From NCBI RefSeq assembly GCF_000379665.1, contig NZ_KB903368.1, positions 248,001-312,000 on the forward strand: a stretch of 64,000 nucleotides of DNA. The letters are read 5' to 3'. The DNA comes from Butyricimonas synergistica DSM 23225. Its GTDB lineage: Bacteria > Bacteroidota > Bacteroidia > Bacteroidales > Marinifilaceae. The position numbers were made by a program, and so were the translations under genes. Positions 1 to 49,070 of the stretch are shown here, one piece after another (within the stretch, counting starts at the first letter, position 1; every line of letters starts with the position of its first letter). Under the pieces are notes generated by a model. The model made no database searches and was not told the origin of the DNA. It worked only from the letters and a program-made list of their open reading frames with translations.

Positions 1-2137
1 GACAGGACGTGTTGGTGTTGGTATAAATTTACGCAAAAATGTGCGTGTGGATGCGAGTATCAGCGGAAGTACAACCACGAATAAGGGATTTGGGAAAGGC
101 GTTAATCCGATGTCGTATGCGACCACTATGAATCGGGCTGTGCCTGCGTATGATGAAAATGGAGAGCCTGTTTTTTATCAAATTGCTGGTGGATATAAAC
201 ACTCTAATGTAAGTTCGTTGGCTTATAATTTTATAAATGAACGGGATAATAGTGGTGCACGAGTTGAGGATACGCATTTGTCTGCTAATTTGAATTTTAG
301 CTGGGATATTCTTGATTGGTTGAAATACGAATTTACAGGAGGATACACCCGCGTGCAAAATAATAATGAAACATGGAGTTTGGAGAAAACTTACTACATT
401 GCATCGGAATATAGGGGATATGATTATGGAACAGTAGAACCGGGCAGTGCAGCATTTAAGTCTGCTATGTTGCCTTTTGGCGGAGTATTGGTAACTATGG
501 ATGGTTTGTCATCCTCGTATAATATACAAAATAAATTATTGATCTCTAAAAGTTTCAATGAAGAACATCGGCTGAATGTGATGTTGGGAATGGAACTTCG
601 TTCGTCTTCAGTGAAAAATAATGAGAATCGAGTATTTGGGTATGTGCCGGATCGTGGAGAGAGTTTGGTAAAACCGACACCACCTAGTGATTTTGATCCG
701 ATAGATGGATCATTTGAGGATTGGGGAATTTTAAGTGGTTTATATTCGGGAGATTGGAGAAGGACAAAAAATACAGATAATTTTCTTTCGTATTTTGCGA
801 CGATTGCTTATTCCTTGAAAAATAGATATGTTTTTAATTTTTCTATTCGTAATGATGAGTCTAATCGGTTTGGACAAGATGCGAACAATCGTTTTGACCC
901 GACTTATTCGTTTGGAGCTTCTTGGAGAGTTGTGGATGAACCGTGGATGGAAAGTATTGCGGGGTTAGTGAACTCACTGAATTTACGAGTTACTTATGGG
1001 ATACAGGGAAATGCAGCAACCAAGTTAGGACCCGATTTGATTCTTAAACAACAAGGGGTTGCAAATGTATATAATCAATACTATTCTAATATAAGTAGAT
1101 TGCCGAACCCTAATTTGTCATGGGAAAGGACAAAATCTTGGAATTTCGGTTTGGATATGCAGTTGATCGATATGTTTAATGTAGCATTGGATTATTACAC
1201 GAGAAGTTCTAATGCAATTGTTTCGCAGGATATTCCATTTGAGTATGGTAGAACTTCAATGGATATAAATGGAGGAAAAATTCGTAATAGTGGAGTGGAG
1301 TTTACGGTTAGTTTTAGTCCGATACAAACAAAAGATTGGGCGTTGAGCGTTTCTTTAAATTCATCTAAAAACTGGAATAAGGCGGGAAATCAGCAATATA
1401 CGGCTACTAGAGGAGAGTTGTTGGCTGGAGCTTCCGGGAAGATTTTGAAGAAAGGATATTCTGTTACTGGTTTTTGGTCTTATTCTTTTGCTGGTCTAAG
1501 TGCTGAAGACGGACATCCATTATTTAATTATCTTGATGTTCCGGAAGAGGAACGAGATTCGAAAGTGGATCCGACGACATTTTTGGTGTATTCCGGAGAT
1601 AAAGAACCTTCATTTACCGGAGGATTGAGTTTGGGGCTGCGTTGGAAAGACTTTTCTCTGTCAACGAACTTTTCTTTGTTGCTTGGAGCTAAAAAACGTT
1701 TGACTTCACCTTATACAGGTTTTCCCAATGGAGGATTAAGTGTACCAGGAGAATTGGATAATTTGAGCAAGGATTTGAATAAACGATGGAAAAAGCCGGG
1801 CGATGAGAAAAAAACAAATATTCCGGGAGTTGTGGTTGCCGGACAAAATTATTCGCAAATTTTGCCGGATAATGGGTCTGATTATTGGATTTCCATGTGG
1901 GAAAATTCGGATGCGATGGTGGTTGATGCTTCGTTCTTGCGTTGTAATCAATTGTCCTTATCTTGGAATGTAAATCGGGAATGGTGTAAAAAAGTGGGAT
2001 TAAAGACTCTTGGTGTGAATGCCGGAGTATCAAACTTGTTTGTTATTGCCAGCAAGCGTTTTAATGGTTTTGATCCGGAACTAGGCAATAGTGTACAACC
2101 GAAGAATTATTCATTTGGGATTAATATTGGATTTTAA
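1..2137 (+). CDS. SusC-family TonB-dependent outer membrane receptor, C-terminal part (5' end outside window)
   Basis: This is the beta-barrel part of a SusC-type TonB-dependent transporter that imports oligomers across the outer membrane with its SusD partner. The frame is open from base 2, so the N-terminus lies upstream; the GTG at 41 is only the first possible start inside the window. About 700 residues remain, and the 1201-residue SusC at 36163 matches throughout (shared blocks such as NRYVFNFS, NRFDPTYSFG, LPNPNLSWE, SKRFNGFDPELG). The protein ends in Phe within INIGF, as expected for an outer-membrane barrel. susD follows 12 bases later. STN, carboxypeptidase-like and plug domains are expected upstream but cannot be seen. 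Confidence 0.95.
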   Translation, partial: TGRVGVGINLRKNVRVDASISGSTTTNKGFGKGVNPMSYATTMNRAVPAYDENGEPVFYQIAGGYKHSNVSSLAYNFINERDNSGARVEDTHLSANLNFSWDILDWLKYEFTGGYTRVQNNNETWSLEKTYYIASEYRGYDYGTVEPGSAAFKSAMLPFGGVLVTMDGLSSSYNIQNKLLISKSFNEEHRLNVMLGMELRSSSVKNNENRVFGYVPDRGESLVKPTPPSDFDPIDGSFEDWGILSGLYSGDWRRTKNTDNFLSYFATIAYSLKNRYVFNFSIRNDESNRFGQDANNRFDPTYSFGASWRVVDEPWMESIAGLVNSLNLRVTYGIQGNAATKLGPDLILKQQGVANVYNQYYSNISRLPNPNLSWERTKSWNFGLDMQLIDMFNVALDYYTRSSNAIVSQDIPFEYGRTSMDINGGKIRNSGVEFTVSFSPIQTKDWALSVSLNSSKNWNKAGNQQYTATRGELLAGASGKILKKGYSVTGFWSYSFAGLSAEDGHPLFNYLDVPEEERDSKVDPTTFLVYSGDKEPSFTGGLSLGLRWKDFSLSTNFSLLLGAKKRLTSPYTGFPNGGLSVPGELDNLSKDLNKRWKKPGDEKKTNIPGVVVAGQNYSQILPDNGSDYWISMWENSDAMVVDASFLRCNQLSLSWNVNREWCKKVGLKTLGVNAGVSNLFVIASKRFNGFDPELGNSVQPKNYSFGINIGF

Positions 2138-2149
2138 ATAGGAAGAAAA

Positions 2150-3682
2150 ATGAAAAAGATATTAATAGTATTGTTTGCAGGAGTATTTGTGGCGTGTTCA
2201 GATTTTTTGGAACCGAAGTCGCAAAGTGAATATATACCCAAGGAAGCAACGGCTTTGAATGAAATGTTGCTGGGTGAAGCATATCCTATGTCATCTGGTT
2301 ATGGAAAAGAGATTTTGGATATTGTTTCTATATTGGATGATGATGTGATGTGCACGAATACGCCCGGAGTAATTGATGCTTCTATAACTGAATCGAATAC
2401 GGGAGATTTTTTAAAATTGCGGGCATTATATTCTTGGCAGCCAAATGTGAATGACATATTGAAGGATTATGGAGAATCGATTAATCGTTGGGCTAATTAT
2501 TATGCTTATGTTTTGGGAGCGAATGCGGCATTGGATTATTTGGATGGTGTGTCCGGTACAGAAGATGAAAAAAATTTGGTAAAAGCACAGGCTTTAGCTT
2601 TACGTGGTTTCTATTATTTTTATATGGTAAATATATGGGGAGAAGCTTACAGTCAAAATAAGGCAGGTTTGGGTGTCCCTTTAAAATTAACGAGTGGAAT
2701 GGAAGATCGGGATATCCCGAGAAATACGGTGGAAGAGGTATATGAACAGATATTGGAAGATTTGAATGAGGCAGAAAGGTTGTATGGGGAATTGCCTGAA
2801 AATTTGCGGTTTAAAAGAGATTATAGAACTAATTTACCTATGGTGCAATTATTGAAATCTCGTGTGTATTTGTACATGGAAGATTGGAAAAATGCGGTGA
2901 TTTATGCTAAAAAAGTAATAGAGGATTGGAATTTTGCTTTGACGGATTTGAAAAGTTTATCTGGGGGAACGTATTATAATTTTGTATCCATGGATTGTCC
3001 TGAAGCAGTTTGGGTATTCGGATCGATAAGTAAATACATGACTTATTTAGATACTCACGTATATATAGAAGATCCTATGGATGAAGAGGAACATATTTCT
3101 GTTAAGTTTTTTAATGCATCAGATGAATTGCTAAAAGAGTATGTAGAGGGAGATTTAAGAAAAGAAAATTATGTATTGCTCGAAAAATATAAAGATTCAT
3201 GGGGGAATCAGTATAATGGTAATTATTTGGCAGTAGGAAAGTTTGCAATTAATCCAGATCATAATGTCGCAGATAAGCAGGGATTTGGGCACGCATTTAG
3301 ATTACCGGAAGCTTATTTGAATTTGGCGGAGGCTGCAGCGATGGATAAAGATGATGATACGGCATTGTGGGCATTGAACGAATTGCGAAAAACTCGTTTT
3401 ACAGAAGAGAAATATAAGGCTGTTTCTGGAATTAGTGGAGAGGATTTGGTGGAAAGGATTCGTTTGGAAAGACGTTTGGAGCTTTGTTTTGAAGGACACC
3501 GTTGGTTTGATTTGAAACGTTATGGTACGACTTCTATTGAACACCAATGGAAAATAGAGGGAGAATTGGTTCAAGGATATGTATTGCCGGCGAACGATCC
3601 ATTTTATGCAATGCCAATTTCTCGAGAGGTTTTGGAACAGAATACAAGTTTAGAGCAAAATAAATTGCCTAATCCTAGATAG
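2150..3682 (+). CDS. RagB/SusD family outer-membrane lipoprotein
   Basis: This is the surface lipoprotein partner that caps SusC and binds substrate. It has 510 residues, usual for SusD. A lipobox (FVAC) places the lipidated Cys at residue 16. The start NxxLEPKSQSEY-type region and the C-terminal signature RIRLERRLELCFEGHRWFDL are typical of the RagB/SusD fold (TPR helices plus SusD domain). It is closely related to the SusD at 39778, with an almost identical first 50 residues. It lies directly after susC and before a small lipoprotein gene. Base composition is AT-rich (22 of 60 G+C in 2161-2220), unlike the later parts of the window. Confidence 0.95.
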   Translation: MKKILIVLFAGVFVACSDFLEPKSQSEYIPKEATALNEMLLGEAYPMSSGYGKEILDIVSILDDDVMCTNTPGVIDASITESNTGDFLKLRALYSWQPNVNDILKDYGESINRWANYYAYVLGANAALDYLDGVSGTEDEKNLVKAQALALRGFYYFYMVNIWGEAYSQNKAGLGVPLKLTSGMEDRDIPRNTVEEVYEQILEDLNEAERLYGELPENLRFKRDYRTNLPMVQLLKSRVYLYMEDWKNAVIYAKKVIEDWNFALTDLKSLSGGTYYNFVSMDCPEAVWVFGSISKYMTYLDTHVYIEDPMDEEEHISVKFFNASDELLKEYVEGDLRKENYVLLEKYKDSWGNQYNGNYLAVGKFAINPDHNVADKQGFGHAFRLPEAYLNLAEAAAMDKDDDTALWALNELRKTRFTEEKYKAVSGISGEDLVERIRLERRLELCFEGHRWFDLKRYGTTSIEHQWKIEGELVQGYVLPANDPFYAMPISREVLEQNTSLEQNKLPNPR

Positions 3683-3707
3683 TTGTTGAATATAAAAATG
3701 ATAGATT

Positions 3708-4691
3708 ATGAAATGGATATATATATTATATAGTATCATGGTCATTGGGGTGTTTACTTCTTGCTACGATGAAAAAGCATTGACACCTACAGAAGATGGG
3801 GAAGGAATGAGTCGATATGAATTTCCACAGGGGACAAATGCTTGGGATAAGGATATAGAAGAAATTTGGGAGAAATTTAACGTGTATTTGATATACAAGG
3901 ATTTTAAACATGCTGATTTTAATCGTTCTTGGACGGGTGGTGGTTTAGGTCTTGAAAATGACGGGGTGGATTTGACTGATGAACAAGTAGAAAGGACAAC
4001 TCGTTTTATGAAAGAACATATTTTTGCATACTTAAATGAGGAAATTGTACCTAAAGTCTTGCCAATGTATTGGTATATGACTTATGATTTTCATTCTTTT
4101 ATGGAGTTGGATTTAGGGTTTATGGTTCTAAAGTATAAAACTCCGATGAAAACTGCTTATGACGGTTTGGATTTTTGGGTTGTTTGTTTAGAGGGAGAAG
4201 ATCCGTCGCTTGAAAGTATGACAGAGGCTAGTGAGAAAATAAATTTTCCCGTGACCAAAAGGGACTTTTTTATAAGAAGAGGAGATATATTAGAGCATAT
4301 ATTGTTAACTTCTTTTGATAAAGGTAATATTGAAATACCCGCAAATTTTGAAACAGGATTTGATTATAAAACGGAAATTAAAAAAGAGGATTGGGAAATA
4401 GATGATGAGAATTACTATTTAACTCGAGGTTTCCCTGGTAGTTATAATGTTGCGGGTATTACATTCGGTTTTTCTCGCTTAGAAGGAATTGGCGACATAA
4501 GTAATAGTAAAAATTTCCAAAATTATATCAGGCTTTGTTTGTATTATTCTGTTGCAGAATTGGATGAGAAATATCCTCGTTCCAAGTATCCATTTTTAAG
4601 GGAAAAGAGAGATTTGGTTGCTAATTATTTTAAGATAACATATAATGTTGATTTTGATGCGATTGTTGAAGGTCCAGAGATCGGAGAATAA
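3708..4691 (+). CDS. SusCD-associated zinc-metallohydrolase-like lipoprotein, HExxH motif lost
   Basis: A 327-residue lipoprotein with a lipobox (FTSC, Cys19). The FPQGTN...YKDF...RSWTG region and the C-terminal helix YFKITYNVDFD resemble the SusCD-linked metallohydrolase lipoproteins (TIGR04549-type, recalled from family knowledge). Members normally carry HExxH. Here the matching segment reads GDILEHILLTSF and no HExxH exists anywhere, so zinc catalysis is unlikely. The paralogue at 41323 is also degenerate at this place. It lies 25 bases after susD and is followed by a strong hairpin. A substrate-binding or scaffold role is inferred. The family assignment is moderate; lipoprotein status and locus membership are clear. 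Confidence 0.7.
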   Translation: MKWIYILYSIMVIGVFTSCYDEKALTPTEDGEGMSRYEFPQGTNAWDKDIEEIWEKFNVYLIYKDFKHADFNRSWTGGGLGLENDGVDLTDEQVERTTRFMKEHIFAYLNEEIVPKVLPMYWYMTYDFHSFMELDLGFMVLKYKTPMKTAYDGLDFWVVCLEGEDPSLESMTEASEKINFPVTKRDFFIRRGDILEHILLTSFDKGNIEIPANFETGFDYKTEIKKEDWEIDDENYYLTRGFPGSYNVAGITFGFSRLEGIGDISNSKNFQNYIRLCLYYSVAELDEKYPRSKYPFLREKRDLVANYFKITYNVDFDAIVEGPEIGE

Positions 4692-4711
4692 TTAGAAAGT
4701 TGAGGAATAAA

Positions 4712-4735
4712 ATCGGGAGGGATTTTCCTCCCGAT
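4712..4735 (+). promoter_or_regulatory. Intercistronic hairpin between lipoprotein and tlpA genes
   Basis: A perfect 9-bp stem (ATCGGGAGG / CCTCCCGAT) with a 6-base loop lies between the lipoprotein gene and the TlpA gene. No T-run follows on the plus strand (an A-run does), so it is not a textbook terminator. It could act as an attenuator, an RNase barrier or a 3'-end stabiliser separating the SusCD-lipoprotein part of the mRNA from the processing genes. A hairpin of unrelated sequence sits at the same junction in the paralogous locus (42309-42341). Confidence 0.6.
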
Positions 4736-4749
4736 AAAAAACAAATGGT

Positions 4750-5754
4750 ATGTTTAAAATTGGGTATATACTTGTTATTTCGGTATTGATGAGTGTTACA
4801 ACTCTAGCTCAATCGGGATTAAGGATTTCCGGTAAAGTTAGGCTATTGCAACCGACAGAGATCGCATTAAAGACGATTGAGGGAGAGGCGTTGGTGTCGG
4901 CTTCGGTAAAGAGTGGCGAAGAGTTTGCGATGGGACCATTGGAGATCGAGCCGGATGTTTACTTGATTTGTTTTGGGGAAACGAGTCAACCGATTTATTT
5001 GACGAATACCGAAGTTACGATAAAGGGATTTTATGATTGCAAGCATGTAGGGAATAGTTCTTTGAATTTCACGGGGATTGAAAAGTATCACGAGTTGTTG
5101 AAGTGGTTGCCGAAGGAGCAATTTTCACAGGATAAAACGATAGACCCGGGGGTGAAGGGAAAGTTGGAGGGGAATATGTATAGTGCTTTGGCGTATATTG
5201 CGGATATGTCGGCTTATGAGCCGAATAAGATCCTGTTGGATTGTATGTCGGAAGAGGCGTTGAAGACGGTTTCCGGGAGATGGTTGCAATATCGGTCAGA
5301 TAGTTTGTATCATTATTCTATTGGGGCTCCGGCGTATGATTTTACTTTTCAGGATGCATCCGGGAAGAAGGTTAGTTTGAGTGATTTTCGGGGAAAGTTC
5401 GTGTTGGTTGATTTTTGGGCATCTTGGTGTGGTCCTTGTCGTCACGAGATGAAGAATTTGTTGCCGATATATAACGAGTTGAAGGGGGATGATCTTGAAT
5501 TTATCAGTGTATCGTTGGATTCCAAGGAGGCGAATTGGCGGAAAATGTTGGAAGAGGAAAAGCTACCTTGGGTGATGTTGTGGGATGAGGAAGGTTTTGT
5601 TATCGGCAATAAGCCCAATAAGATTCAACGGGCGTATGGTTTTTATAGTATCCCGTTTATTGTCTTGATAGACAAGGAAGGACGTTTATTGGCGAAAGAT
5701 TTGCGGGGGGAGAAAGTGAAGGAGGAGATTCTGAAAGCCAGAAAAAATTTATGA
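4750..5754 (+). CDS. TlpA-family periplasmic thioredoxin with N-terminal DUF4369-like domain
   Basis: A 334-residue exported disulfide oxidoreductase. An N-terminal hydrophobic signal (about residues 1-20) is followed by a beta-rich DUF4369-like region (about 24-110), a helical linker and a thioredoxin domain (about 190-330). The active site is WCGPC (Cys227, Cys230), and a cis-Pro loop appears as SIPFIV. TlpA proteins reduce or resolve disulfides of envelope proteins. This is the first of five thioredoxin-domain proteins in locus A. It lies after a hairpin and before the subtilisin-like gene. The substrate is unknown. Confidence 0.9.
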   Translation: MFKIGYILVISVLMSVTTLAQSGLRISGKVRLLQPTEIALKTIEGEALVSASVKSGEEFAMGPLEIEPDVYLICFGETSQPIYLTNTEVTIKGFYDCKHVGNSSLNFTGIEKYHELLKWLPKEQFSQDKTIDPGVKGKLEGNMYSALAYIADMSAYEPNKILLDCMSEEALKTVSGRWLQYRSDSLYHYSIGAPAYDFTFQDASGKKVSLSDFRGKFVLVDFWASWCGPCRHEMKNLLPIYNELKGDDLEFISVSLDSKEANWRKMLEEEKLPWVMLWDEEGFVIGNKPNKIQRAYGFYSIPFIVLIDKEGRLLAKDLRGEKVKEEILKARKNL

Positions 5755-5849
5755 TTTAAGATTTGAGATTTAAGATTGTAGTTTTGGATTAACGATTGGT
5801 GATTACGAGTCGTTTTGATATTGTATTGTAAAAAATAAAACTGTAAGAG
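5755..5849 (+). repeat. GATTTA-type intergenic short repeats
   Basis: The spacer between the TlpA and subtilisin-like genes starts with near-tandem copies of GATTTAAGATT / GATTTGA / GATTTAAGATT, followed by looser GATT-containing units up to about 5810. Similar low-complexity GATTTA/TAAATC words occur in the spacers near 58810 and 61497. No promoter is clear here. The pattern looks like an interspersed intergenic repeat rather than a coding region. Confidence 0.4.
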
Positions 5850-7550
5850 ATGAAAAAGTATTTTCTGTTATTGATGGCAAGTGCATGCATCAGTGTTGTA
5901 AATGCACAGTTGGTGAAACAGAACGATCAGGGAGAAAAGAAACAATCTGATTTGGATTGGTACAATTGCTCTTTTGATAAGGATAACGTGTATGGTGCGG
6001 AAGTGAATAAGGCGTATGATTTTTTGAAGGGAAAGAAAGTAAAGAAAAGACCGGTAGTTGCTTTAATCGGTTCCGGGATTGATGTTGAACACGAAGATTT
6101 GAAACAGGCAATTTGGTTTAACCCGAAAGAAAAAGCAGACGGGAAGGATAATGACAAGAATGGATTGGTGGATGACGTAAACGGTTGGAATTTCTTGGGC
6201 GGTAAGGATGGTCAGGTAATGGAGAGCACGATGCGTGAAGGTGACCGGGAATTTTTGCGGTTGAAAGATAAATACGCGGATTATGTATTTGACGGAAAGG
6301 ATTACTATAAGGTTATTAACGAAAAGTTGACAAAAGTGGCGGCTCCGGAGAATGTAGACGAGTATAACTATTTTCGCTATCAGGTGTTACCGGAGTCTCC
6401 GATGGCGAGCACATACGGTGGTTGGCAACTTACTTACGTGATAAGGGATTATGCCGGCAAGTTTGATAAAATGATGAGGGAGCGTTTCCCGAATAAGGAA
6501 TTGACACAGGAAGATTTCGGTATTTGTTATGACCCGAAAGCTCCCCGTGATTCTTTGGCTGAAGTTGCATTTATGATGTGTGCTTATGGTTTTACTGTTT
6601 ACCAAACGGATAAGTGGGATGCTGTTTACGCTGGGATTAAGAGTGGAGCTCAAATTCAACAATCTCAAGCAGATTACGAGAGAAAAGTGAACCAGTTCGG
6701 TGCGGATGGACGAAAAGAGATCGTGGGAGATAATTATTTGGATATAAATGACAATAAGTACGGGAATAATGTATTATTGACGACGGATGCCGCTATTGGG
6801 ACGATGGAAGCCGGTATTATTGCCGGTAAACGGGATAATGGTTTAGGAGGTAATGGCATTATGGATCAGGCTGAGATCATGACATTGCGGGTTGCTACTA
6901 ACGGGGAACCTTATTTGAAAGATATTGCTTTGGCTATCCGTTATGCCGTGGATCATGGTGCGGATATTATTTTATTGCCGGTGCAAAACAGTCTTTATCC
7001 TGAAGACCAGAAAAAATGGATTAGTGAGGCATTGGAATATGCGGAGAGTAAAGGCGTGTTGGCAATAACTCCAGCATGGGAAGCTTCTCAGGATTTGTCT
7101 AAAGATATTTATTTCCCCAATCGCTGGATGACGGGTAAGAAGGAGTTGACTAATTTGATGGTTGTTTCTTCTTCTAATAAAGAAGGCAATCCTTTGATGG
7201 AGTCCAACTATGGTGCGAAGGAGGTAGATTTGTATGCCCCAGGTATTGATATATACTCCGCTTACACGGGTGATACTTATCAAACGGGAACCGGAATCGG
7301 ATTTGCGGCAGCAACGACGGCAGGGGTGGCTGCTTTGTTGAAAGCGTATTATCCCGAGTTGACCGGAACTCAAATCCGGAATATTTTGCTGGAGTCTGTT
7401 ACTTCCAGAAAGGATGTAGAGGTCGAGAAGGGAATTAGAGTGAACGGGCAATCAACGCAGGATTTGTTCTTGTTTGGAGATTTGTGTCTTTCCGGCGGTA
7501 TATTGAATGCTCATCAGGCTGTAGTGGCTGCCGATAAGTTAGTAAAGTGA
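5850..7550 (+). CDS. S8 subtilisin-fold protein lacking the whole catalytic triad (pseudo-subtilase)
   Basis: A 566-residue exported protein with a signal peptide ending near VNAQ (residue 20). The S8 fold is recognisable from the strand around the Asp site, the AIRYAVDHGADII helix and AGVAALLKAYYPELTG. The Asp position of the usual VIDSG motif is Gly74 (LIGSGID). The His of HGTHVAG is Ile316 (AAIGTMEAG). The Ser of GTSxAAP is Gly484 (GFAAATTAG). The oxyanion Asn in AAGND is replaced (ITPAWEAS). It therefore cannot work as a serine peptidase. A large insert (about 100-290) lies between the Asp and His positions, as in the Bacteroidota family. Binding, inhibitor or chaperone roles are possible. 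Confidence 0.9.
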   Translation: MKKYFLLLMASACISVVNAQLVKQNDQGEKKQSDLDWYNCSFDKDNVYGAEVNKAYDFLKGKKVKKRPVVALIGSGIDVEHEDLKQAIWFNPKEKADGKDNDKNGLVDDVNGWNFLGGKDGQVMESTMREGDREFLRLKDKYADYVFDGKDYYKVINEKLTKVAAPENVDEYNYFRYQVLPESPMASTYGGWQLTYVIRDYAGKFDKMMRERFPNKELTQEDFGICYDPKAPRDSLAEVAFMMCAYGFTVYQTDKWDAVYAGIKSGAQIQQSQADYERKVNQFGADGRKEIVGDNYLDINDNKYGNNVLLTTDAAIGTMEAGIIAGKRDNGLGGNGIMDQAEIMTLRVATNGEPYLKDIALAIRYAVDHGADIILLPVQNSLYPEDQKKWISEALEYAESKGVLAITPAWEASQDLSKDIYFPNRWMTGKKELTNLMVVSSSNKEGNPLMESNYGAKEVDLYAPGIDIYSAYTGDTYQTGTGIGFAAATTAGVAALLKAYYPELTGTQIRNILLESVTSRKDVEVEKGIRVNGQSTQDLFLFGDLCLSGGILNAHQAVVAADKLVK

Positions 7551-9933: not shown

Positions 9934-9935
9934 TT

Positions 9936-41322: not shown

Positions 41323-42282
41323 ATGAAATGGAGATATTATTTATATAGTTTGCTAGGCTGCATGTTGTTTTTTGCTTGTTATAATGAAGATACATTGACA
41401 GCCGACGAGAGTGGCGAAGATTTAGTCCGCTTTGAATTCCCTCAAGGAACCAATTCATGGGATGATGACGTTGTGGCAATCAAGGAGAAATTCAATGTCT
41501 GTATTATTTATAAGGATTTTCAAGCGTCTGATTTAAATCGGACATGGACGGGAACTATTGGAAGTCAGACTTATTTTGGGGAAGGATTGAAGAATGATGA
41601 ACAAGCCGAGTTCATGATTAGTTTTATGAAGAATTATGTTTTTGCCTATTTGAGCCCGGCGATTACTCAAAAAGTGTTGCCGATGTATTATTACATGGTT
41701 TATGATTGTCATGCTCCATTAGTGTTTGGACCTTACAATTTGAAAGCGCCCATGAAAAATATTTTTGACGGAATGGATTATTGGTCGCTTTGTATGTTCT
41801 ACGGGGAATCGGATCCCATGTCGGATATGTTCTACGGTAAATTTGAAACTCCGGAAACACCGGAAGATTTTTGGGAGTGGAGAGGAGTTATTTTGTATGA
41901 AATTTTAGAGAAAGCGTATGAAAAGGGAAATATCGTTATGCCGGAAGAATTTCAAGCGGGGATTGACTATAAAACAGAGGTTGAATCCGATCCGGGTACA
42001 GAGGGAGATCCCAATTATTACGCGAAACGGGGTTTCCCGGGGGCATCGGTTAGTTACACGAGGTTGGATAAGTTGAAAAGGATTGGAAACACGAACCCGA
42101 GCAAGAACTTTTTCGCTTATATACATTTGGGTATGAGGTACACATCGGAAGCGTTGGAAGCACTGCATCCGAAAGCAAATAATCCCTTGTTGTGGGAGAA
42201 ACGTCAATATGTTCTTAATTACATGAAGACTAAATACGATTTGGATCTGGAGGCAATAGCCAAGATTCCGACTATGAATTAA
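41323..42282 (+). CDS. SusCD-associated zinc-metallohydrolase-like lipoprotein, HExxH motif lost (second copy)
   Basis: A 319-residue lipoprotein (FFAC, Cys19), paralogous to 3708: FPQGTNSWDDD, YKDFQASDLNRTWTG and a C-terminal MKTKYDLDLEAI. The segment expected to hold HExxH reads GVILYEILEKAYEKGNI: the Glu is kept while both His are lost. The first copy reads ILEHILL at the same place. Loss in both paralogues suggests that the non-catalytic form is the one retained. A strong hairpin lies between this gene and the next. Confidence 0.7.
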   Translation: MKWRYYLYSLLGCMLFFACYNEDTLTADESGEDLVRFEFPQGTNSWDDDVVAIKEKFNVCIIYKDFQASDLNRTWTGTIGSQTYFGEGLKNDEQAEFMISFMKNYVFAYLSPAITQKVLPMYYYMVYDCHAPLVFGPYNLKAPMKNIFDGMDYWSLCMFYGESDPMSDMFYGKFETPETPEDFWEWRGVILYEILEKAYEKGNIVMPEEFQAGIDYKTEVESDPGTEGDPNYYAKRGFPGASVSYTRLDKLKRIGNTNPSKNFFAYIHLGMRYTSEALEALHPKANNPLLWEKRQYVLNYMKTKYDLDLEAIAKIPTMN

Positions 42283-42341: not shown

Positions 42342-42363
42342 CACTCTAATATTGATAAAAAAA

Positions 42364-43458
42364 ATGTATTGTATGAATTATTGGTATGTAAATTTACTGG
42401 GATTACTCTTTTTTCTTTTCCCGAGTATTGGGAATGCTCAATCCCGGACTTCATTGCAAGATGAGGTAATCAAAGAATGGAATAACTACAGTCTTGAGGG
42501 AGCAACGGTAGAATCAATTTTAAAGCAGAAGGCAGCCATCGAGAAAATGATCCTTGCCCGTGACAAGAAAGATGAAATGGCACGTCTTGCCAATCAGGTT
42601 AAGGCAATAAATTCGATTGCCGATTATTATAGAGAGCACAAGAATGCTAGTGTGAATAAAAGTGCGTTGCGGAAGGTATTAAAAGGCGTGCGTTTTGATT
42701 CGCGGGAATTTTTGGCGCTTCCCAATCTTGAAAGAAATATAGATACTTATTTCAACGTGAAAGCCTTGGCGGACGGTTACGAGGCATCCCAGATTCTAGA
42801 CGCTAAACGGGATGAAGTGGAGTACGAAAGATACAAACAAATACTGGAATCCCGAAATCCAGATTTGATATTGTCTTATTTTAAAGGAATCAGAAGTGAT
42901 TTTATACTCAACTACACGGGGGCGTTGAAAAAAGCCCGTCCTCTATTCGAGCAATACATGCCGGAGGGAGAACTACGACAATTGGTAATGGACTTGTATG
43001 CCGCGAAGGAACGTTTAAGTCCGGGAAAGGACGCCCCTCTCTTTACTTTAATAGATTATAAAAAGCAAAAGCATTCTCTTCAAGACTTCAGGGGTAAAAT
43101 ATTAATAATCGACGTGTGGGCGACGTGGTGTGGAGGGTGTATCCGTAAATTACCTTATTTTATGAAAGTTGCGGAGAAGTATAAAGATCGCACGGATGTG
43201 GAATTTATCACGATATCCATCGACGAGGAGGGTAAATTTAATCATTGGAAGTACTCTTTGCCAAGGTACAAACTGTTAGGAGTTAAGAATTTGATCGCAT
43301 TCCCGAAAACGACACCCTTCCAGGATGATTATGATGTACATGGTATACCCCGGTATATCATAATAGATAAAGACGGGAAAATAATTGATACCGATGTCCC
43401 CGGTCCGGGCGCTGGTTTCGAAGAATTTGTGGATAAGTTATTAGGTAGTTCAATTTAA
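42364..43458 (+). CDS. TlpA-like thioredoxin, CGGC type (locus C)
   Basis: A 364-residue exported protein counted from the ATG at 42364; an in-frame TTG at 42352 lies closer to the hairpin and is unlikely, and the ATG at 42373 is also possible. A signal peptide ending near GNAQ precedes a helical domain and a thioredoxin domain with WATWCGGC (Cys256, Cys259) and GIPRYIIID. It is the counterpart of 11209, sharing a start of the type EVIKEWNNY / YVLKEWNDF and the LFEQYMPEG segment. In both loci the next gene is the same unknown exported family. Confidence 0.88.
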   Translation: MYCMNYWYVNLLGLLFFLFPSIGNAQSRTSLQDEVIKEWNNYSLEGATVESILKQKAAIEKMILARDKKDEMARLANQVKAINSIADYYREHKNASVNKSALRKVLKGVRFDSREFLALPNLERNIDTYFNVKALADGYEASQILDAKRDEVEYERYKQILESRNPDLILSYFKGIRSDFILNYTGALKKARPLFEQYMPEGELRQLVMDLYAAKERLSPGKDAPLFTLIDYKKQKHSLQDFRGKILIIDVWATWCGGCIRKLPYFMKVAEKYKDRTDVEFITISIDEEGKFNHWKYSLPRYKLLGVKNLIAFPKTTPFQDDYDVHGIPRYIIIDKDGKIIDTDVPGPGAGFEEFVDKLLGSSI

Positions 43459-43469
43459 GCGTACGAGAT

Positions 43470-44264
43470 ATGGATAATTGTATAAAGAAAGGCGTTTTGC
43501 TGGTTGTTGCTGTTTTTGCTTTCATGAGTGGCTGGGGACAAGCGAACGTGTTGGAACAGCAAAAGAAAGAATTCGAGCGGGGAAAACGTGATGTCGATTT
43601 TTTAGCGTCTTATATCGCTAATTTAAAAGAGAGTAAAGACCGTCAGGCACTGAGTCGGGCATTGGATTGTTATATCGTGCTTTTGCCCGGGGAACAACGG
43701 TACGCGGAACAAAGTGTACAGGACTTTATCAATTACATCGATTACCAGGAAAGTCAAGTTTGCCTGGATTATATAAAGAATTGGAATAAACTGAATTTGC
43801 GGGAAGAACAGGTGAAACAGATGAGTCCAAAAATGGAAGTGATGCTTTTATGGCCGGTATTTCATTGGATGACTTCTCCCGCCGAGGAAAAGCCGGCACA
43901 ACCCGATTGTGAAGAAGTCGTGTTATTATTGGCAAATAATAACGTGGCAGCCGTCTCTCCGACTTGTAAGACCTTGTTGGAAATGTGGCAATTATACAAG
44001 CGGAAAGATGTCGATAAAATGGTGGAATTGTTCGTCGGGATGCTACAATCCGGGGGGACTGTAAGCGGGATCATAGACTTGGGTGTAATAGGTTATTTAG
44101 TGGATTACCTGCTGGAGGAAACCAGCGTGTCACAGGCACGGGAAATACAATCTGTCTTGGAAAACCTCTTGAAGGACGATTCGTTGGAAAAATCTAAAGC
44201 CGGCTTGCTAAAAGGATGGAATGATGATTTTACCGGTAAAATCTTACTAGAAGAGGAAGAATGA
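43470..44264 (+). CDS. Exported protein of unknown family (counterpart of 12329)
   Basis: I do not recognise the family. It has 264 residues with a signal peptide ending near GWGQ (residue 24) and a predominantly helical body. It shares the mature N-terminal pattern LEQQKKEFERGKRDVDFLASYIANLK with the protein at 12329 and the LLEMWQLYKRKDVDKM helix. It keeps fewer Cys than its homologue. Its stop overlaps the start of the next gene (ATGA), so the two are translationally coupled and may act together. Confidence 0.8.
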   Translation: MDNCIKKGVLLVVAVFAFMSGWGQANVLEQQKKEFERGKRDVDFLASYIANLKESKDRQALSRALDCYIVLLPGEQRYAEQSVQDFINYIDYQESQVCLDYIKNWNKLNLREEQVKQMSPKMEVMLLWPVFHWMTSPAEEKPAQPDCEEVVLLLANNNVAAVSPTCKTLLEMWQLYKRKDVDKMVELFVGMLQSGGTVSGIIDLGVIGYLVDYLLEETSVSQAREIQSVLENLLKDDSLEKSKAGLLKGWNDDFTGKILLEEEE

Positions 44265-45340
44265 AAATAGGGATTATTTTTATCATGTTGGTGTGTATCG
44301 GGTGTTCCGGTGCACAGCAATATTCCTTCTCGATTCAGGGAAACGTGGAAGGAGCCAAGTACGGCAAAGCGTTCTTGTTAACCCCCAAGGAGGAAGTCAT
44401 TTGTTCCACGAAAATAGAGGGAAGGGGATTTGAATTGAAGGGTATTTTAAAGGAACCCGGGCAATATGTGTTGAGAGTGAACCGGCGGCAATTCATGTTC
44501 TTCATGGATGGAAAGAGCATGAGAATAGAGTGCCCCTATCGTTCCTTTTCTTCCGGCTACTTGCAAGGATCTCCGGCAAACGATTTGTCCGTGGAGTATG
44601 GCCAACTCCAGGAGGACTACACGGCAAGGCGAGAGCGTTTTTTAAAAGAATACAAAAAAGCGATGGACGCCGGGGATCAAAAAGCGGCAGACGAGGCGAT
44701 GACTCAAGTACTGTTAGTGGGAGAAGAGGAATTTGCCCTCACGCGGGAATTCGTGCGCGAGCATCCCGACAATATCTTTTCGGCTTACATCTCGGAGAAA
44801 GCGGGGAGAGAGAATTACGCGAAGGCAAAAGAATTGTACGGGTTGCTGACCCCGCGGGCACAACAATATTCATGGGGATGCCTCTTGAAACAGCACCTTG
44901 ACGGTTTATCTGCGTCCGCCGAAGGAGTGATGTGCCCGGAGTTTACCGTGTCGGACGAGGAGGGGAATCCGGTTACCATGAGTTCCTTGAAGGGAGATAT
45001 TCTCGTTCTCGACTTTTGGGCGTCCTGGTGTGGACCGTGTCGCCAGGAGATGAAAAGTTTGCGGGAACAGTACAAGGAGTTCAAGGACAAAGGCGTACGT
45101 TTCGTGAGTATCTCTTTGGATGCCTCGTCGGATAAATGGAAAGAAGCGTGCGAGGAAGAGAATATCCCTTGGCTCAGCACGTTGGCGGATGGCGGATGGG
45201 ACGATTCCGAGGTGCGCGAACTGTTCGGCATACAATCCATCCCTCACATCGTGCTGGTTGGCAAAGACGGGAGGATCGTGGGTAAAAACGTGCGTCGCAA
45301 TATTTTGCGGGATAAAATCATCGAGTTGTTAAACAAGTAA
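44261..45340 (+). CDS. Lipid-anchored TlpA-family thioredoxin with DUF4369 domain (locus C)
   Basis: A 359-residue lipoprotein (CIGC, Cys15). A DUF4369-like domain (about 20-115; GNVEGAKYGKAFLL, NRRQFMFFMDGK) is followed by a helical linker and a thioredoxin domain with FWASWCGPC (Cys257, Cys260) and cis-Pro in SIPHIVLV. It is the counterpart of 13199. From about here the DNA becomes visibly richer in G+C than the first half of locus C. The next gene starts directly at the following base. Confidence 0.9.
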   Translation: MKIGIIFIMLVCIGCSGAQQYSFSIQGNVEGAKYGKAFLLTPKEEVICSTKIEGRGFELKGILKEPGQYVLRVNRRQFMFFMDGKSMRIECPYRSFSSGYLQGSPANDLSVEYGQLQEDYTARRERFLKEYKKAMDAGDQKAADEAMTQVLLVGEEEFALTREFVREHPDNIFSAYISEKAGRENYAKAKELYGLLTPRAQQYSWGCLLKQHLDGLSASAEGVMCPEFTVSDEEGNPVTMSSLKGDILVLDFWASWCGPCRQEMKSLREQYKEFKDKGVRFVSISLDASSDKWKEACEEENIPWLSTLADGGWDDSEVRELFGIQSIPHIVLVGKDGRIVGKNVRRNILRDKIIELLNK

Positions 45341-46234
45341 ATGGTATTCCAAATGGGGAAAAAATTATTGATACAATTTATGATTGTATGGGGAATTTGC
45401 CTGTCCGCTCATGCACGGGAGCAACAAACCTCTGACACGAGTACGGTCGTGAAAACGAATCGCTTGAATGATCGCTTGATAAACGGGGATACGGATCTCG
45501 ACACCCCGGGCTTGGAGTCGTTGCGGGAATCCGAAATCATTCGCCTCGTGAATCGCGTCTTGGATCTTAAGGAACCCAAGCTGGACGTGCTGGAACGTGC
45601 CACGTGGGTATTGTATAACATCCGGAGCGAGCGGGTGAGAGAATGCTACGTCATGTGGGCATTAGCTGAAAAATTGGATCGGGGGGAGAATACTTTTATC
45701 GATAATATATTCACGGACATGGATTTGTGTTCCGTCTCCGAGAGATTGAAAAACAGAGCCCGGGAATTGGTCGCCTGGTACGAACCTTTGCGGCCCGGGA
45801 AAGACGCCCCGGACTTTGAACTCGAGTCGAGCGATGGGACAACCGTTCGTTTGCACGATTTACAAGGGCAACCGTTATTCATAGAGGTATGGAAATTGGA
45901 TTCCGCGAATTGCCGGGAAGATCTGGCACGCCTGGAAGAATTGAAGGCGGAGTATAAAAACGTACGGTTCGTGACGGTTGCCGTTGAACCGCTAGGCAGG
46001 AAAGAGGCATGGAAACAATTTTTAAGGGACAACGGTCACGAGGGCAAAGGCATTCATCTTTTTGCCGACGAGAACGCTGCTTTTCGCGAGAGCTATCGTG
46101 TCAAGACCATTCCCCGTTGTATATTGCTTGACGCGACAGGGAAATTCCTGATCCCGTGGAGTGTATCGCCGGGGCACGAGTATTTCCCCTATTTCCTTTC
46201 CATGCTGAAGCAACACCGGGAAAACGGGAATTGA
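45341..46234 (+). CDS. TlpA-like protein with broken active site (SANC)
   Basis: A 297-residue exported protein with a signal peptide ending near AHAR (Met at 45353 is an alternative start). It is the counterpart of 14284, with the shared ATWVLYNIRSE helix and thioredoxin fold, but shorter by about 70 residues at the N-terminal side. Where the homologue has ATWCGGC, this one has KLDSANC: Ser188 replaces the nucleophilic Cys and only Cys191 remains. The cis-Pro loop (TIPRCILLD) is kept and now carries a Cys. It cannot cycle as a normal dithiol oxidoreductase. Confidence 0.85.
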   Translation: MVFQMGKKLLIQFMIVWGICLSAHAREQQTSDTSTVVKTNRLNDRLINGDTDLDTPGLESLRESEIIRLVNRVLDLKEPKLDVLERATWVLYNIRSERVRECYVMWALAEKLDRGENTFIDNIFTDMDLCSVSERLKNRARELVAWYEPLRPGKDAPDFELESSDGTTVRLHDLQGQPLFIEVWKLDSANCREDLARLEELKAEYKNVRFVTVAVEPLGRKEAWKQFLRDNGHEGKGIHLFADENAAFRESYRVKTIPRCILLDATGKFLIPWSVSPGHEYFPYFLSMLKQHRENGN

Positions 46235-46262
46235 GTAATTAACGTATTAAATAAATCGAGAG

Positions 46263-47891
46263 ATGAAAAGAAAGAAATTATTCGGAATCGTATTATTCAC
46301 GTGTGCCATGCTGGCGGCGGAAGCCCAGACCCGTGTCGACTGGCATTTATTGTCGCCTGCCCGGGACAGTGTTTACGGGGCGGGTATTCTAGAGGCTTAC
46401 TGCGAGTTGGGGGACAACGCCCCCAGGCGAAAAGTGGTAGTGGCGGTAATTGACGCGGGGTTCGACGTGCAACACGAGGCTCTGGCTAACGTCCTATGGC
46501 GTAACGGGAAAGAAATCGCCGGGAACGCGAAAGACGACGACAAGAACGGCTACCCCGACGATTTGCACGGGTGGAATTTCCTCGCCTCCCCCGACGGTAA
46601 GTTGATCGAGAGAACTTCCGACGAAGCATTCCGCCAATTCTTGAAAGTGAAGGACCGTTTTGACGAACTCCACGGGAAGAAGAGAAGCGAGGAAGAGAAC
46701 AACGAGTATATCGACTACCTTAAATGGGCGAAGAACAGTCCGTTAGTATCCTTGTACGTGGGGGCAAGTTTTAACTACAATTTGGCTAAAAGCGTCGAAG
46801 AACTAGATCGCCTGTTGCGGGAAAAATGTCCAGATCGTGAGCCCACGCAAGAAGATTTTGCCGCGTTGAACCCGATCGTGCAACAATCCGGGGACACGCT
46901 TCAGAAGATCGCCTACTATACTTACAGCATCGTGTGGAGCTTCGGGAATAAAAACAAGAAATGGGATGACTTGTATCGGAACCGTTACAGGAGCTGCGAG
47001 GCTCAGCGCCAGGAATGCGAGAAAGCGTGGGCGGCACTGGTCGACGAGAGAAGTTTGGTGAACGACGATCTCAACTCCTTGTCAGACCGCTATTACGGGA
47101 ACCACGACTTCCTCTCCGCTGCCGCCGACGAGGGGACTGCCGTGGCGGGCATCATAGCCGCCGCGTCCGGTATCACCAGGGGGATAAAGGGAATCTCCGA
47201 CCAGGTGGAACTGATGCTCCTCCGTGCTCTTCCCTCTTCCGGTGACGCGTACGATAAAGACATAGCCCTGGCTATCCGCTACGCGGTGGACCAAGGGGCG
47301 GATATCATCAACATGAGTTTCGGCAAATACGTGTTGGATAACCGCGAATGGATTGATGATGCCATCGCTTACGCCGAGAAACACGATGTATTGATCGTGC
47401 ACGCTGCCGGCGATAACTACCGTGACACGGGGAAAGACCCCTATTTCCCCGTGAAACAAGGGCTGGGGCGCGAACGTGCGTTCACCAATATCATCACGGT
47501 CGGTGCCTCGGACATGGAGGGCAATCCTTATATTAACAGTAACCACGGGACGGGCAGTGTCGACCTCTTCGCGCCCGGCGTGCAATTGTACACGACGGTC
47601 TGCGGGGACAACTACAGGAAAGTGACTGGCACGAGAATCGCGGCTCCCGTGGTTGCCGGCATCGCCGCCATGTTGAAGTCTTATTACCCGTCGCTCGAGG
47701 CCTCGCGGATAAGGGATATTCTCGTCCGTACGGCCCGGCAGACACCCTCGGCAACCGTTCCCTTCCCGCGTGATCCGACCAATAGCGGGGGGGCGCCGAC
47801 CGGGGGATACGACCAACTATGTGTATCGGGAGGTATTATTGATGCCGCCGCCGCTGTTAAGCTGGCGCATGAAATTTGCGAGGGAAAGTAA
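46263..47891 (+). CDS. S8 subtilisin-fold protein with lost His and Ser (pseudo-subtilase, locus C)
   Basis: A 542-residue exported protein with a signal peptide ending near AEAQ (residue 22). The catalytic Asp remains (VIDAG, Asp64). The His site is Glu290 (ADEGTAVAG for the usual HGTHVAG), the Ser site is Arg458 (GTRIAAP for GTSxAAP), and the oxyanion Asn is Asp (AAGDNY). The fold segments AIRYAVDQGADIINMSFGK and VVAGIAAMLKSYYPSLEASRIRDIL are otherwise very typical, so the gene is under constraint. It is the counterpart of 5850, inactivated by different substitutions. It lies next to a retropepsin gene, as in locus A. Confidence 0.9.
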   Translation: MKRKKLFGIVLFTCAMLAAEAQTRVDWHLLSPARDSVYGAGILEAYCELGDNAPRRKVVVAVIDAGFDVQHEALANVLWRNGKEIAGNAKDDDKNGYPDDLHGWNFLASPDGKLIERTSDEAFRQFLKVKDRFDELHGKKRSEEENNEYIDYLKWAKNSPLVSLYVGASFNYNLAKSVEELDRLLREKCPDREPTQEDFAALNPIVQQSGDTLQKIAYYTYSIVWSFGNKNKKWDDLYRNRYRSCEAQRQECEKAWAALVDERSLVNDDLNSLSDRYYGNHDFLSAAADEGTAVAGIIAAASGITRGIKGISDQVELMLLRALPSSGDAYDKDIALAIRYAVDQGADIINMSFGKYVLDNREWIDDAIAYAEKHDVLIVHAAGDNYRDTGKDPYFPVKQGLGRERAFTNIITVGASDMEGNPYINSNHGTGSVDLFAPGVQLYTTVCGDNYRKVTGTRIAAPVVAGIAAMLKSYYPSLEASRIRDILVRTARQTPSATVPFPRDPTNSGGAPTGGYDQLCVSGGIIDAAAAVKLAHEICEGK

Positions 47892-47906
47892 TTAAAAACA
47901 TTCAGT

Positions 47907-49070
47907 ATGAAATTCAAACAATTGTATATTAGCTTGCTGGTCATTTGTTCCGCGGCCTTGCACCTCACGGCCAAGGCGGAAACACCGGCTTTTTACGTGG
48001 AAGTGCCATACACGACAGTCAATGGAAAGATAATCATTGAAGCGCGCGTGGAAGGCATCCCCGGGAAATTCATTTTCGACACGGGAGCCCCTACCTACAT
48101 CACCCGTTCTTTGGCTCGACGTCTCGCCTTGCAATCCACTGGTAAGCAAGCGATTCTTGACGCCCACGATCAATCGATGACTTTGGAAAAAGCGCGATTG
48201 AAACGTTTGTCAATGGGCGTGGCCCCGGGAATTAATATCGAGGATATACCGGTCACGATCATGCCTGAAGGGCACCTGATCGAGCGATTCGGCGTGGTGG
48301 GGATGGTCGGTTGCGACTTGTTCCCGGGGGCTGTCGTGCGGATTGATTCCCGGCAAAAGAAGATTATTATAACCGACGGCATCGCCCCTTTTCATATTAA
48401 CCCGAGGAATCGTCTGCCGCTGGTACGCGTGCAAGGGCAGATCCCTTTTATCGAGTTGAACGTGGGTGCGGGGGTGATAGAAACCGTCATGTTCGATAGC
48501 GGCTCGGGCGCTTTCTATGAAATGATCGAGGCGACTGCGGCGGAAGCCCTTCGCGAGGATGCGGCAGAATTATTAGCCAAGGGATACGGTAGTAGCGGCA
48601 TCGGGATGGCTGGCGAAGCCTCTGCCAGGGAGCGTAGTCTGATCCGTTTGCGGGAATTGCGTGTCAGCACGGGACGTTTCCGGAATATCGTCACGGGATC
48701 CGTCTCTGCGCCTTATTCCCGCTTGGGCTCACGATTATTGGACTATGGCACGGTGACGCTTGATTACGCTTCAAACGCTTTTTACTTCGAGCCTTTTGAA
48801 ACGGCTTCTCGTGATTTGCACGAGAAAAAGTGGAACGTGGACTTCACCGTGGCGGATGGTCATGTCGTGGTAGCTTGCGTGTGGGGGGATTTAGTGGGGA
48901 AGATTTTCCCGGGAGAACGTCTTTTAAAGATAGACGGGGAGCCTGTCGGAGAGGTAAATGTCGCCGATGCGTTACAATCTTCGCTCGTGAAAATCAAGAA
49001 CGAGAAAGCCGTCATCACCGTCTTGCGGCGGGATGGCACTGAAGTAGAGGTCGCTATCGAGAAGAAGTAA
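47907..49070 (+). CDS. Two-lobed retropepsin-like aspartic peptidase with PDZ-like domain (locus C)
   Basis: A 387-residue exported protein with a signal peptide ending around AKAE (residue 23). The lobes carry FDTGA (Asp58) and FDSGS (Asp197); both are acceptable D-T/S-G motifs, so it is likely active. The C-terminal PDZ-like part has PGERLLKIDGEPVG. It is the counterpart of the genes at 7609 and 8764. It begins 15 bases after the pseudo-subtilase gene and is the last gene of locus C; a terminator hairpin follows. Confidence 0.88.
   Translation: MKFKQLYISLLVICSAALHLTAKAETPAFYVEVPYTTVNGKIIIEARVEGIPGKFIFDTGAPTYITRSLARRLALQSTGKQAILDAHDQSMTLEKARLKRLSMGVAPGINIEDIPVTIMPEGHLIERFGVVGMVGCDLFPGAVVRIDSRQKKIIITDGIAPFHINPRNRLPLVRVQGQIPFIELNVGAGVIETVMFDSGSGAFYEMIEATAAEALREDAAELLAKGYGSSGIGMAGEASARERSLIRLRELRVSTGRFRNIVTGSVSAPYSRLGSRLLDYGTVTLDYASNAFYFEPFETASRDLHEKKWNVDFTVADGHVVVACVWGDLVGKIFPGERLLKIDGEPVGEVNVADALQSSLVKIKNEKAVITVLRRDGTEVEVAIEKK

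Follow-up and report, generated by a model that had tools for sequence, protein, structure and literature searches.

A 64,000-nucleotide stretch of the Butyricimonas synergistica genome (the window) contains two SusCD loci, here called A and C, both of which continue into genes for subtilase-like, retropepsin-like and TlpA-type proteins. What such genes do beside a SusC/SusD pair, and whether they belong to one system, is the question considered here. The original prediction listed the genes of the two loci and described them as the same accessory genes in permuted order. Its gene content and order were borne out by open reading frames, Pfam searches and pairwise matches (Table 1). From SusC on, each locus runs on a single strand, and no gap exceeds 95 bases in A or 69 in C. 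The region separating them (15596-33857) is occupied by a further SusCD locus and ABC-type genes, named by eye.

Table 1. Genes of loci A and C and possible additional members of locus C. Percentages are amino acid identities.
Feature	Position	Strand	Evidence
Locus A sigma and FecR genes	L009 15583-17442, just upstream of window
Locus A SusC, C-terminal part within window	41..2137	+	Gene start upstream in L009; 1202 aa total; 66% to C SusC
Locus A SusD lipoprotein	2150..3682	+	Pfam SusD-like_3 4.8e-23, SusD_RagB 2.5e-22
Locus A SusCD-linked lipoprotein	3708..4691	+	Lipobox FTSC; weak Peptidase_Mx1 likeness, without HExxH
Locus A TlpA0, thioredoxin-fold, WCGPC	4750..5754	+	AhpC-TSA 1.1e-21
Locus A pseudo-subtilase	5850..7550	+	Peptidase_S8 1e-25; triad Asp/His/Ser replaced by G/I/G
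Locus A bilobal aspartic protease rp1, PDZ-like C-terminus, two FDTG	7609..8757	+	Asp_protease_2 1.3e-8, PDZ_6 0.0072
Locus A bilobal aspartic protease rp2	8764..9933	+	Asp_protease_2 6.5e-10; VDTG and FDTG
Locus A pseudo-retropepsin/thioredoxin fusion, WCGPC	9936..11204	+	Thioredoxin 1.7e-24; without D[TS]G
Locus A block gene 1, TlpA1, WCGGC	11209..12321	+	Redoxin 1.9e-20; 43% to C
Locus A block gene 2, unknown, predicted all-helical, signal peptide by eye	12329..13156	+
Locus A block gene 3, TlpA2 with DUF4369, probable lipoprotein	13199..14287	+	56% to C
Locus A block gene 4, TlpA3, WCGGC	14284..15396	+	40% to C TlpA3; named by match to other TlpAs
Locus C ECF-type sigma factor	34260..34817	+	By eye; 61% to sigma-like gene at 15596
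Locus C FecR-type anti-sigma	34907..36082	+	By eye; 47% to gene at 16269
Locus C SusC	36163..39768	+	Best solved relatives 8ypu_C 6.2e-106, RagA 2.6e-62
Locus C SusD	39778..41310	+	56% to A SusD
Locus C SusCD-linked lipoprotein	41323..42282	+	Lipobox FFAC; 43% to A
Locus C block gene 1, TlpA1, WCGGC	42352..43458	+
Locus C block gene 2, unknown helical protein	43470..44264	+	27% to A
Locus C block gene 3, TlpA2, probable lipoprotein	44261..45340	+	By eye; lipobox pattern unmatched
Locus C block gene 4, TlpA3 without WCxxC	45341..46234	+	AhpC-TSA 7.4e-14
C-type pseudo-subtilase	46263..47891	+	Peptidase_S8 4.1e-41; Asp kept, His to Glu, Ser to Arg
C-type bilobal aspartic protease, FDTG and FDSG	47907..49070	+	Asp_protease_2 2.2e-10
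GH85 endo-beta-N-acetylglucosaminidase, possible locus C member	49157..51391	+	Glyco_hydro_85 4.5e-33; equivalent neighbor in G009 (L112)
Unknown-family protein, signal peptide by eye, possible locus C member	51492..52973	+	Without Pfam match; equivalent neighbor in L112

Relationship Between Loci A and C

The part of the prediction that stands is the four-gene TlpA block, which A and C share as a unit: for each of its genes the counterpart in the other locus is the best match, at the identities given in Table 1. All seven strong matches of its second gene among 56 genomes of the same family also sit in such blocks. The protease pair has a different history. The subtilase homologs of the two loci are 36% identical and the retropepsin homologs 31%, below the SusC identity, and sisterhood of the A and C proteins is rejected by trees for both (AU p 3e-30 and 1e-64, respectively), although the SusCs do group together. 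The pair in C is thus a separate lineage, and shuffling of a subtilase-retropepsin module between A and C, as originally proposed, is ruled out; movement as a module holds just for the four-gene block. Better evidence of modularity comes from two near-identical loci in other genomes (G008 and G010), where a nine-gene processing block of the A type lies 3′ of a different SusC, SusD and lipoprotein. Uptake genes have been exchanged against processing genes at least once.

Distribution of the Gene Set

Co-occurrence of these families proved to be conserved outside this genome as well. The set recurs in 28 core loci spread over 14 genomes of Butyricimonas, Odoribacter and Pedobacter type, in agreement with the prediction that the accessory genes are not random neighbors. 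Within core runs of other loci, the genes named are those similar to the query set from this genome. SusC and SusD are in the same run in 25 of the 28 (L120 is a core locus without adjoining SusCD), TlpA0 is found in 22, and 182 of 195 gaps between neighboring genes are shorter than 100 bases. One locus (L134) has the fusion and a dead subtilase, with no aspartic protease found. By family, core loci are present in 10 of 56 genomes of the Butyricimonas family and in at least 4 of 301 sampled Pedobacter-family genomes (13 of the 31 matching genomes were inspected); retropepsin matches occur in all six genomes of the genus, this one included. Two further such loci are found in this genome besides A and C; the four contain all nine of its retropepsin-like matches.

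Related aspartic proteases are also found without the set (L119, L122-L124, L127, L131-L133, L175-L183, L185, and L186, some of these stretches being short or cut off where a contig ends), so the presence of a protease of this family is not by itself a sign of the system. In three variant loci (L121, L126, and L129) SusCD is accompanied by an aspartic protease of the C-like kind and a large protein of thioredoxin type, and subtilase is absent; L118 is another variant. These four were left out of the 28 core loci.

Predicted Active and Inactive Protease Folds

In 27 of the 28 core loci the subtilase has lost residues of the catalytic triad, and neither A (G/I/G at the triad columns) nor C (D/E/R) has the complete Asp-His-Ser set of an active subtilase. 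The exception, L130, has an intact triad beside its aspartic protease. The five subtilases of this genome that are distant from any retropepsin still have the triad, including two (L037 and L039) within SusCD loci, so triad loss tracks the aspartic protease rather than SusCD. One and two losses of the triad are indistinguishable by tree test (AU p 0.43). With NCBIfam models, the locus A homolog scores 33.9 bits against CspC_non_triad (cut-off 675) and 109.9 bits against a mycosin model, also far under its cut-off; since the mycosin model scores higher, the likeness to CspC is that of the subtilase fold.

The aspartic proteases, by comparison, keep both D[TS]G motifs in 35 of 36 cases in the core loci. 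A true retropepsin is single-lobed and dimeric, each chain contributing a single D[TS]G lobe; the two motifs per chain, and alignment of the structure model to two-lobed pepsin-type enzymes, rule out that identity. The model of rp1 (pLDDT 90) has as its best Foldseek match 9iy9, a putative endopeptidase of Bacteroides fragilis (1.3e-13, 301 columns), which is also its best PDB sequence match (3.7e-11), and alignments to pepsin-type enzymes cover ~310-360 columns; TM-scores of these structural matches are about 0.4-0.5 on the query, at 10-18% identity. The paired motifs and these long alignments would fit a pepsin-type enzyme with two lobes in a single chain. From 9iy9 and the pepsin-type proteases rp1 differs in its PDZ-like C-terminus and its setting in a SusCD locus. 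The retropepsin-like/thioredoxin fusions of the core loci are the converse: all 25 are missing both catalytic Asp motifs, and all 25 have WCxxC.

In two Mucilaginibacter loci (L050 and L059) the gene of a related aspartic protease separates sigma from FecR, and an intact subtilase is found between sigma and FecR of the SusCD locus L039 in this genome.

Other Proteins of the Loci

WCxxC is present in every TlpA0 (22/22), TlpA1 (8/8) and TlpA2 (8/8), and in five of seven TlpA3, both C-type copies being without it. TlpA genes downstream of SusC are common in this genome: 40 of its 84 AhpC-TSA matches follow a plug match at a distance of ≤10 kb, where random placement predicts 11.6, so that TlpA alone is weak evidence of a special system. 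Block gene 2 of locus A has no Pfam or NCBIfam match. Its model (pLDDT 83.6) is all-helical, with no Foldseek match at 0.001; the top structural matches suggested a likeness to 14-3-3 proteins, but at a TM-score of ~0.2 this was disbelieved.

The lipoprotein following SusD had been called metallohydrolase-like, which did not hold up. It scores 13.0 bits with Peptidase_Mx1 (E 0.066), where the cut-off is 25.6; HExxH, the motif expected of a zinc metallopeptidase of this family, is absent from both the A and C copies; and none of this genome's seven matches to PF15890 is at either locus. A zinc metallopeptidase identity was rejected on these grounds. Lipoboxes are present in SusD and in this lipoprotein, which in locus A is probably surface exposed; most of the other proteins have plain signal peptides by eye.

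Of the possible additional members of locus C, the protein at 51492..52973 has a 41% homolog adjoining a core locus in L134; a PDB search with this 493-aa protein gave just one doubtful match (0.0085).

Comparison with Known Systems

Where a polysaccharide utilization locus is controlled by sigma/FecR, a single run takes in the regulator, SusC and SusD, a lipoprotein and, downstream of these, the genes for processing. Loci A and C have the same layout, but encode proteases, pseudoproteases and thioredoxins in the processing positions, and the glycoside hydrolase recognized beside them is the GH85 after C. A second comparison is the Gpd complex of Capnocytophaga canimorsus, presumably SusCD-like. 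It is an outer-membrane complex that deglycosylates N-glycoproteins, according to the opening of the abstract of PMC3128124, where aspartic proteases and pseudo-subtilases, both present in these loci, go unmentioned; locus C is followed by the GH85, a candidate member.

RagAB of Porphyromonas gingivalis and the BT2263/BT2264-type systems are likewise SusC/SusD pairs. The solved relatives nearest to the locus C SusC include RagA, and BT2264 is also matched (1.1e-34), but for both SusC and SusD 8ypu/8ypt score above RagA/RagB among solved structures, and RagAB is not the closest relative. RagAB is described as an importer of protease-made peptides; the passages on it in PMC11817032 do not mention a linked set of periplasmic aspartic protease, pseudo-subtilase and thioredoxins such as these loci have. 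In Clostridioides difficile, a subtilisin homolog of the CspC/CspBA system is a pseudoprotease with a signaling role, as reported in the abstract of PMC6636752. This too is a subtilisin-family pseudoprotease, but organism, partners and gene context differ from those of loci A and C. Among the matches listed in a search of open-licence literature (titles and abstract beginnings), no description of the gene set was found.

Possible Functions

If the proteins of these loci have a common function, the one favored here is nutrition: with a probability of roughly 0.5, judged from sequence, A and C would be members of a family of sigma/FecR-SusCD loci for polypeptide import and breakdown. This may be a way of polypeptide uptake and breakdown not described before, and the polypeptides imported are perhaps disulfide-bonded. 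At the surface, a peptide or a fragment of a protein would be captured and imported by SusC, SusD and the lipoprotein; the TlpA proteins and the thioredoxin fusion would reduce its disulfides in the periplasm; the pseudo-subtilase and pseudo-retropepsin could bind the chain and present it uncut; and the PDZ-bearing bilobal aspartic proteases would then cut it. The uptake part would decide what is imported, while the processing part could be reused. In favor of this reading are the recurrence of the set, the motif patterns of the protease folds, the exchange of uptake genes in G008 and G010 and the relationship of the locus C SusC to RagA. Weighing against it are the patchy distribution of core loci, the exceptions L130, L134 and L120, the abundance of TlpA beside SusCD in this genome, and the fact that 8ypu/8ypt are closer than RagAB. 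Extended to a general scheme, modular protein utilization with exchangeable SusCD importers and a standard periplasmic kit (unfolding by disulfide reduction, holding on dead subtilase- and pepsin-like proteins, cutting by PDZ-bearing bilobal aspartic proteases), the idea is tentative.

The same proteins could conceivably serve defense rather than feeding: antimicrobial peptides rich in disulfides, either defensins of the host or bacteriocins, would be captured, and their reduction and cleavage would follow in the periplasm. Several disulfide-handling proteins do stand beside proteases in one run, and the genus is gut-type, but the set is also found in Pedobacter-type genomes and active import of a toxin would be an odd strategy; detoxification is considered unlikely. 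So is a role in upkeep of the transporter itself, in which proteases and thioredoxins would act in its regulation or assembly (FecR or SusC processing, folding of surface lipoproteins) instead of on imported cargo. Sigma and FecR genes precede the loci, and protease genes intervene between them in L050, L059 and L039; however, 128 plug matches in this genome against four retropepsin clusters argue that there is no general need for such proteases, and the processing block is retained where SusC and SusD differ. A third alternative, rather improbable, is import of a non-nutrient peptide-like compound (for instance a metal-binding peptide or a natural product of ribosomal origin), whose bound cargo would be released by redox chemistry and proteolysis. 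TonB systems of the siderophore type are typically under sigma/FecR control, and the nearest solved SusCD is 8ypu/8ypt, not the peptide importer RagAB; but no metal-handling or biosynthetic genes were recognized in the core runs, where naming was limited to genes resembling the query set. Chance neighborhood, conceivable in a genome with as many plug and AhpC-TSA matches as this one, is contradicted by recurrence of the set, conserved across genera including Pedobacter-type and with subtilase and SusCD adjoining all four retropepsin clusters of this genome.

SusCD loci have been read mainly as glycan systems, and import and digestion of polypeptides by Bacteroidota is far less known. For the polypeptide reading, the recurring kit, with its consistently dead and consistently live protease folds, provides a concrete and testable set of proteins, and the natural swap of uptake genes a handle to separate substrate choice from processing. 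If the reading is true, a live protease whose substrate is received by dead proteases of another class would be a new working principle in nutrient import.

Gene content and further copies in the genome

What the original prediction gave as the genes of SusCD loci A and C, and their order, was borne out by gene calling and Pfam searches; locus A in addition has sigma and FecR genes, named by eye and by similarity, just beyond the window edge. Between positional counterparts, blastp identity is 66% for SusC, 56% for SusD, and 43% for the lipoprotein following SusD; 43, 27, 56, and 40%, respectively, for the four-gene block (TlpA1, a predicted helical protein, TlpA2, and TlpA3); and, for the proteases, 36% for the subtilase and 31% for rp1, one of the two retropepsin-like aspartic proteases of A, against the aspartic protease of C. 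Signal peptides were called by eye and by a simple lipobox pattern.

In the genome as a whole (4.77 Mb), a profile of four retropepsin-like proteins hits nine times at E 0.001, and these hits form four clusters: A, C, and two further loci, E and F. All four adjoin a subtilase homologue and SusC, SusD, and lipoprotein genes. E and F keep the gene order of A: TlpA0 (the separate TlpA after the lipoprotein), subtilase, rp1, in E also rp2, and a pseudo-retropepsin–thioredoxin fusion. The four-gene block is absent from both, its helical-protein gene matching only A and C in this genome. Five more subtilase homologues (L036–L040) have intact catalytic triads and no retropepsin within the fetched 14–20 kb; those of L037 and L039 sit inside SusCD loci, and that of L036 is within a few kb of one. 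This genome often has TlpA genes close to SusC: of its 84 AhpC-TSA matches, 40 lie no more than 10 kb downstream of one of the 128 plug-domain matches, where 11.6 would be expected from random placement using approximated contig sizes.

Coordinates of loci and side features (C numbers are contigs of the B. synergistica genome; L numbers are fetched stretches)
Feature	Sequence	Positions	Content
Window	C10	248001-312000	
Locus A	window	41-15396 (part in window)	
Between A and C	window	15596-33857	Separate sigma/FecR/SusC/SusD locus and two further genes; after these, two ABC ATPase-like and three large ABC-2-permease-like genes (by eye)
Locus C	window	34260-49070	
493-aa protein	window	51492-52973	Without a Pfam family; also kept next to locus C in G009, and G007 has a homologue next to a different core locus
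Locus E	C16	96.9-100.4 kb	Retropepsin-like cluster
Locus F	C2	453.2-455.5 kb	Retropepsin-like cluster
SusCD locus without retropepsin	L039 (C3)	6908-10318	Intact-triad subtilase gene flanked by sigma and FecR
SusCD-type locus, Mucilaginibacter	L050	8993-12420	Distant bilobal aspartic protease gene flanked by sigma and FecR
Mucilaginibacter	L059	8552-11744	Same sigma/aspartic protease/FecR arrangement in a SusCD-type locus, protease gene on opposite strand
C-like short run	L130	3-5516	Lipoprotein, TlpA1, subtilase, unknown, aspartic protease; cut by contig edge

Occurrence in relatives

If a core locus is taken to be any run that joins a subtilase homologue to an aspartic protease or the fusion, there are 28, spread over 14 genomes and including the near copies L107/L113 and L105/L115; doubly named stretches, recognized by identical contig size or like content, were counted once (L041/L125, L042/L106, L043/L109, L044/L110, L045/L111, L049/L112, L046/L120). 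In 25, the run also includes SusC and SusD; of the rest, L115 has both further upstream, L120 has neither, and L130 starts right at the edge of its contig. Aspartic protease genes were found in 27, the one in L135 being a fragment where the contig ends, and none was found in the L134 core locus. The fusion occurs in 25 and TlpA0 in 22, and 182 of 195 intergenic gaps are under 100 bases.

Scanning named genomes yielded 28 loci, a different tally from the core loci. Six loci in records named Butyricimonas (L041–L045, L049), one in a record named Odoribacter (L046), and two of Pedobacter sp. PLR have the set or its C form; among the matches listed, it was not seen in the distant loci L050–L052, L059–L068, and part of L058. 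In the family, 14 of 56 genomes have a retropepsin match at 1e-30, including all six of the genus (the present one among them). Stretches from all 14 were examined, and ten have core loci; family subtilase matches were inspected apart from those in G019, G020, and G024. Of 395 genomes sampled from the phylum, 7 match, and the set is absent from the stretches fetched for the six besides this genome. The Pedobacter-family search matched 31 genomes out of 301 at 1e-45, and 13 of these were inspected (15 regions from 12 genomes, plus two G450 loci; the G502 and G523 matches have coordinates identical to L122 and L123), and at least four of the 301 have core loci: two each in G450 and G714, and one each in G719 and G654. 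The phylum-sample and Pedobacter-family searches scored only four or six candidates per genome, and since members of this family were the source of the profiles, such searches could overlook other lineages of the system.

The Odoribacter-named record, a MAG, has a lipoprotein-TlpA-subtilase-protease-fusion run without adjoining SusCD, and integrase- and mobilization-like genes upstream (by eye). A variant SusCD locus (L121, L126, L129) encodes a ~712-aa thioredoxin-type protein and a C-like aspartic protease, their genes overlapping by 4 bases, without a subtilase.

Catalytic residues and predicted structures

Triad residues are missing in 27 of the 28 core-locus subtilases: His in all 27, Asp in 25, and Ser in 26. 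Asp is kept in the two C-type proteins, and the Ser column reads Ser in L174, a long-branched row. The intact one is in L130, whose run may represent a state before triad loss. The other nine subtilases of the set are also intact: five in this genome, L139 and L140 in a Pedobacter genome, and two more that lie close to core loci, one in L134 and one in L174. Of 36 aspartic proteases longer than 300 aa, 35 have two D[TS]G motifs; all 25 fusions lack D[TS]G and have WCxxC.

For rp1, the predicted structure has high confidence (mean pLDDT 90) and best matches 9iy9, a Bacteroides fragilis protein annotated as a putative endopeptidase, followed by two-lobed pepsin-type proteases, so that "bilobal aspartic protease" is a better name than "retropepsin." The helical block protein is modeled as all-helical (pLDDT 83.6), and a search with this model gave no confident structural relative. 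One portion of the sequence has weak matches to the large thioredoxin-type proteins encoded at variant loci in G011:C79 (L126, 6.5e-8) and G041:C157 (L128, 2.5e-6), hinting at a link with thioredoxins.

Histories of the uptake and processing parts

In the subtilase tree, the C type is separate from 25 A/E/F/Pedobacter-type rows. A single clade of A- and C-type subtilases is rejected (p 3e-30), as is one of A and C aspartic proteases (p 1e-64, quick tree); a single clade of all dead subtilases is not rejected (p 0.43). Yet in a quick tree one starred set unites the SusC proteins of A and C with the G009 counterpart of A. G008 and G010 have an A-type processing block (subtilase 82–83% and TlpA2 75% identical to A), upstream of which is a SusC grouping with the E and Pedobacter types, together with a SusD and a lipoprotein that are each closest to a Pedobacter one (40 and 31%). 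An A-type block thus stands behind non-A SusC, SusD, and lipoprotein genes, so at least one exchange between uptake and processing parts has taken place; the loci of G008 and G010 being near copies, a single event may account for both. The four-gene block marker, the helical-protein gene, has seven strong matches in the 56 family genomes, every one belonging to a block of A or C type. L130 has a weaker match (4e-27), and nine others elsewhere fall between 6e-9 and 5e-6.

Possible function

A GH85 gene lies 3' of locus C, as it does in G009; it would fit glycopeptides, yet may be a mere neighbor. The set of parts, the signals, and the pattern of kept and replaced residues agree with a scheme in which polypeptides would be imported, then reduced and cut in the periplasm. 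The dead proteases may act as binders, a suggestion helped by the precedent of CspC, described as a subtilisin-family pseudoprotease with a signaling role (PMC6636752).
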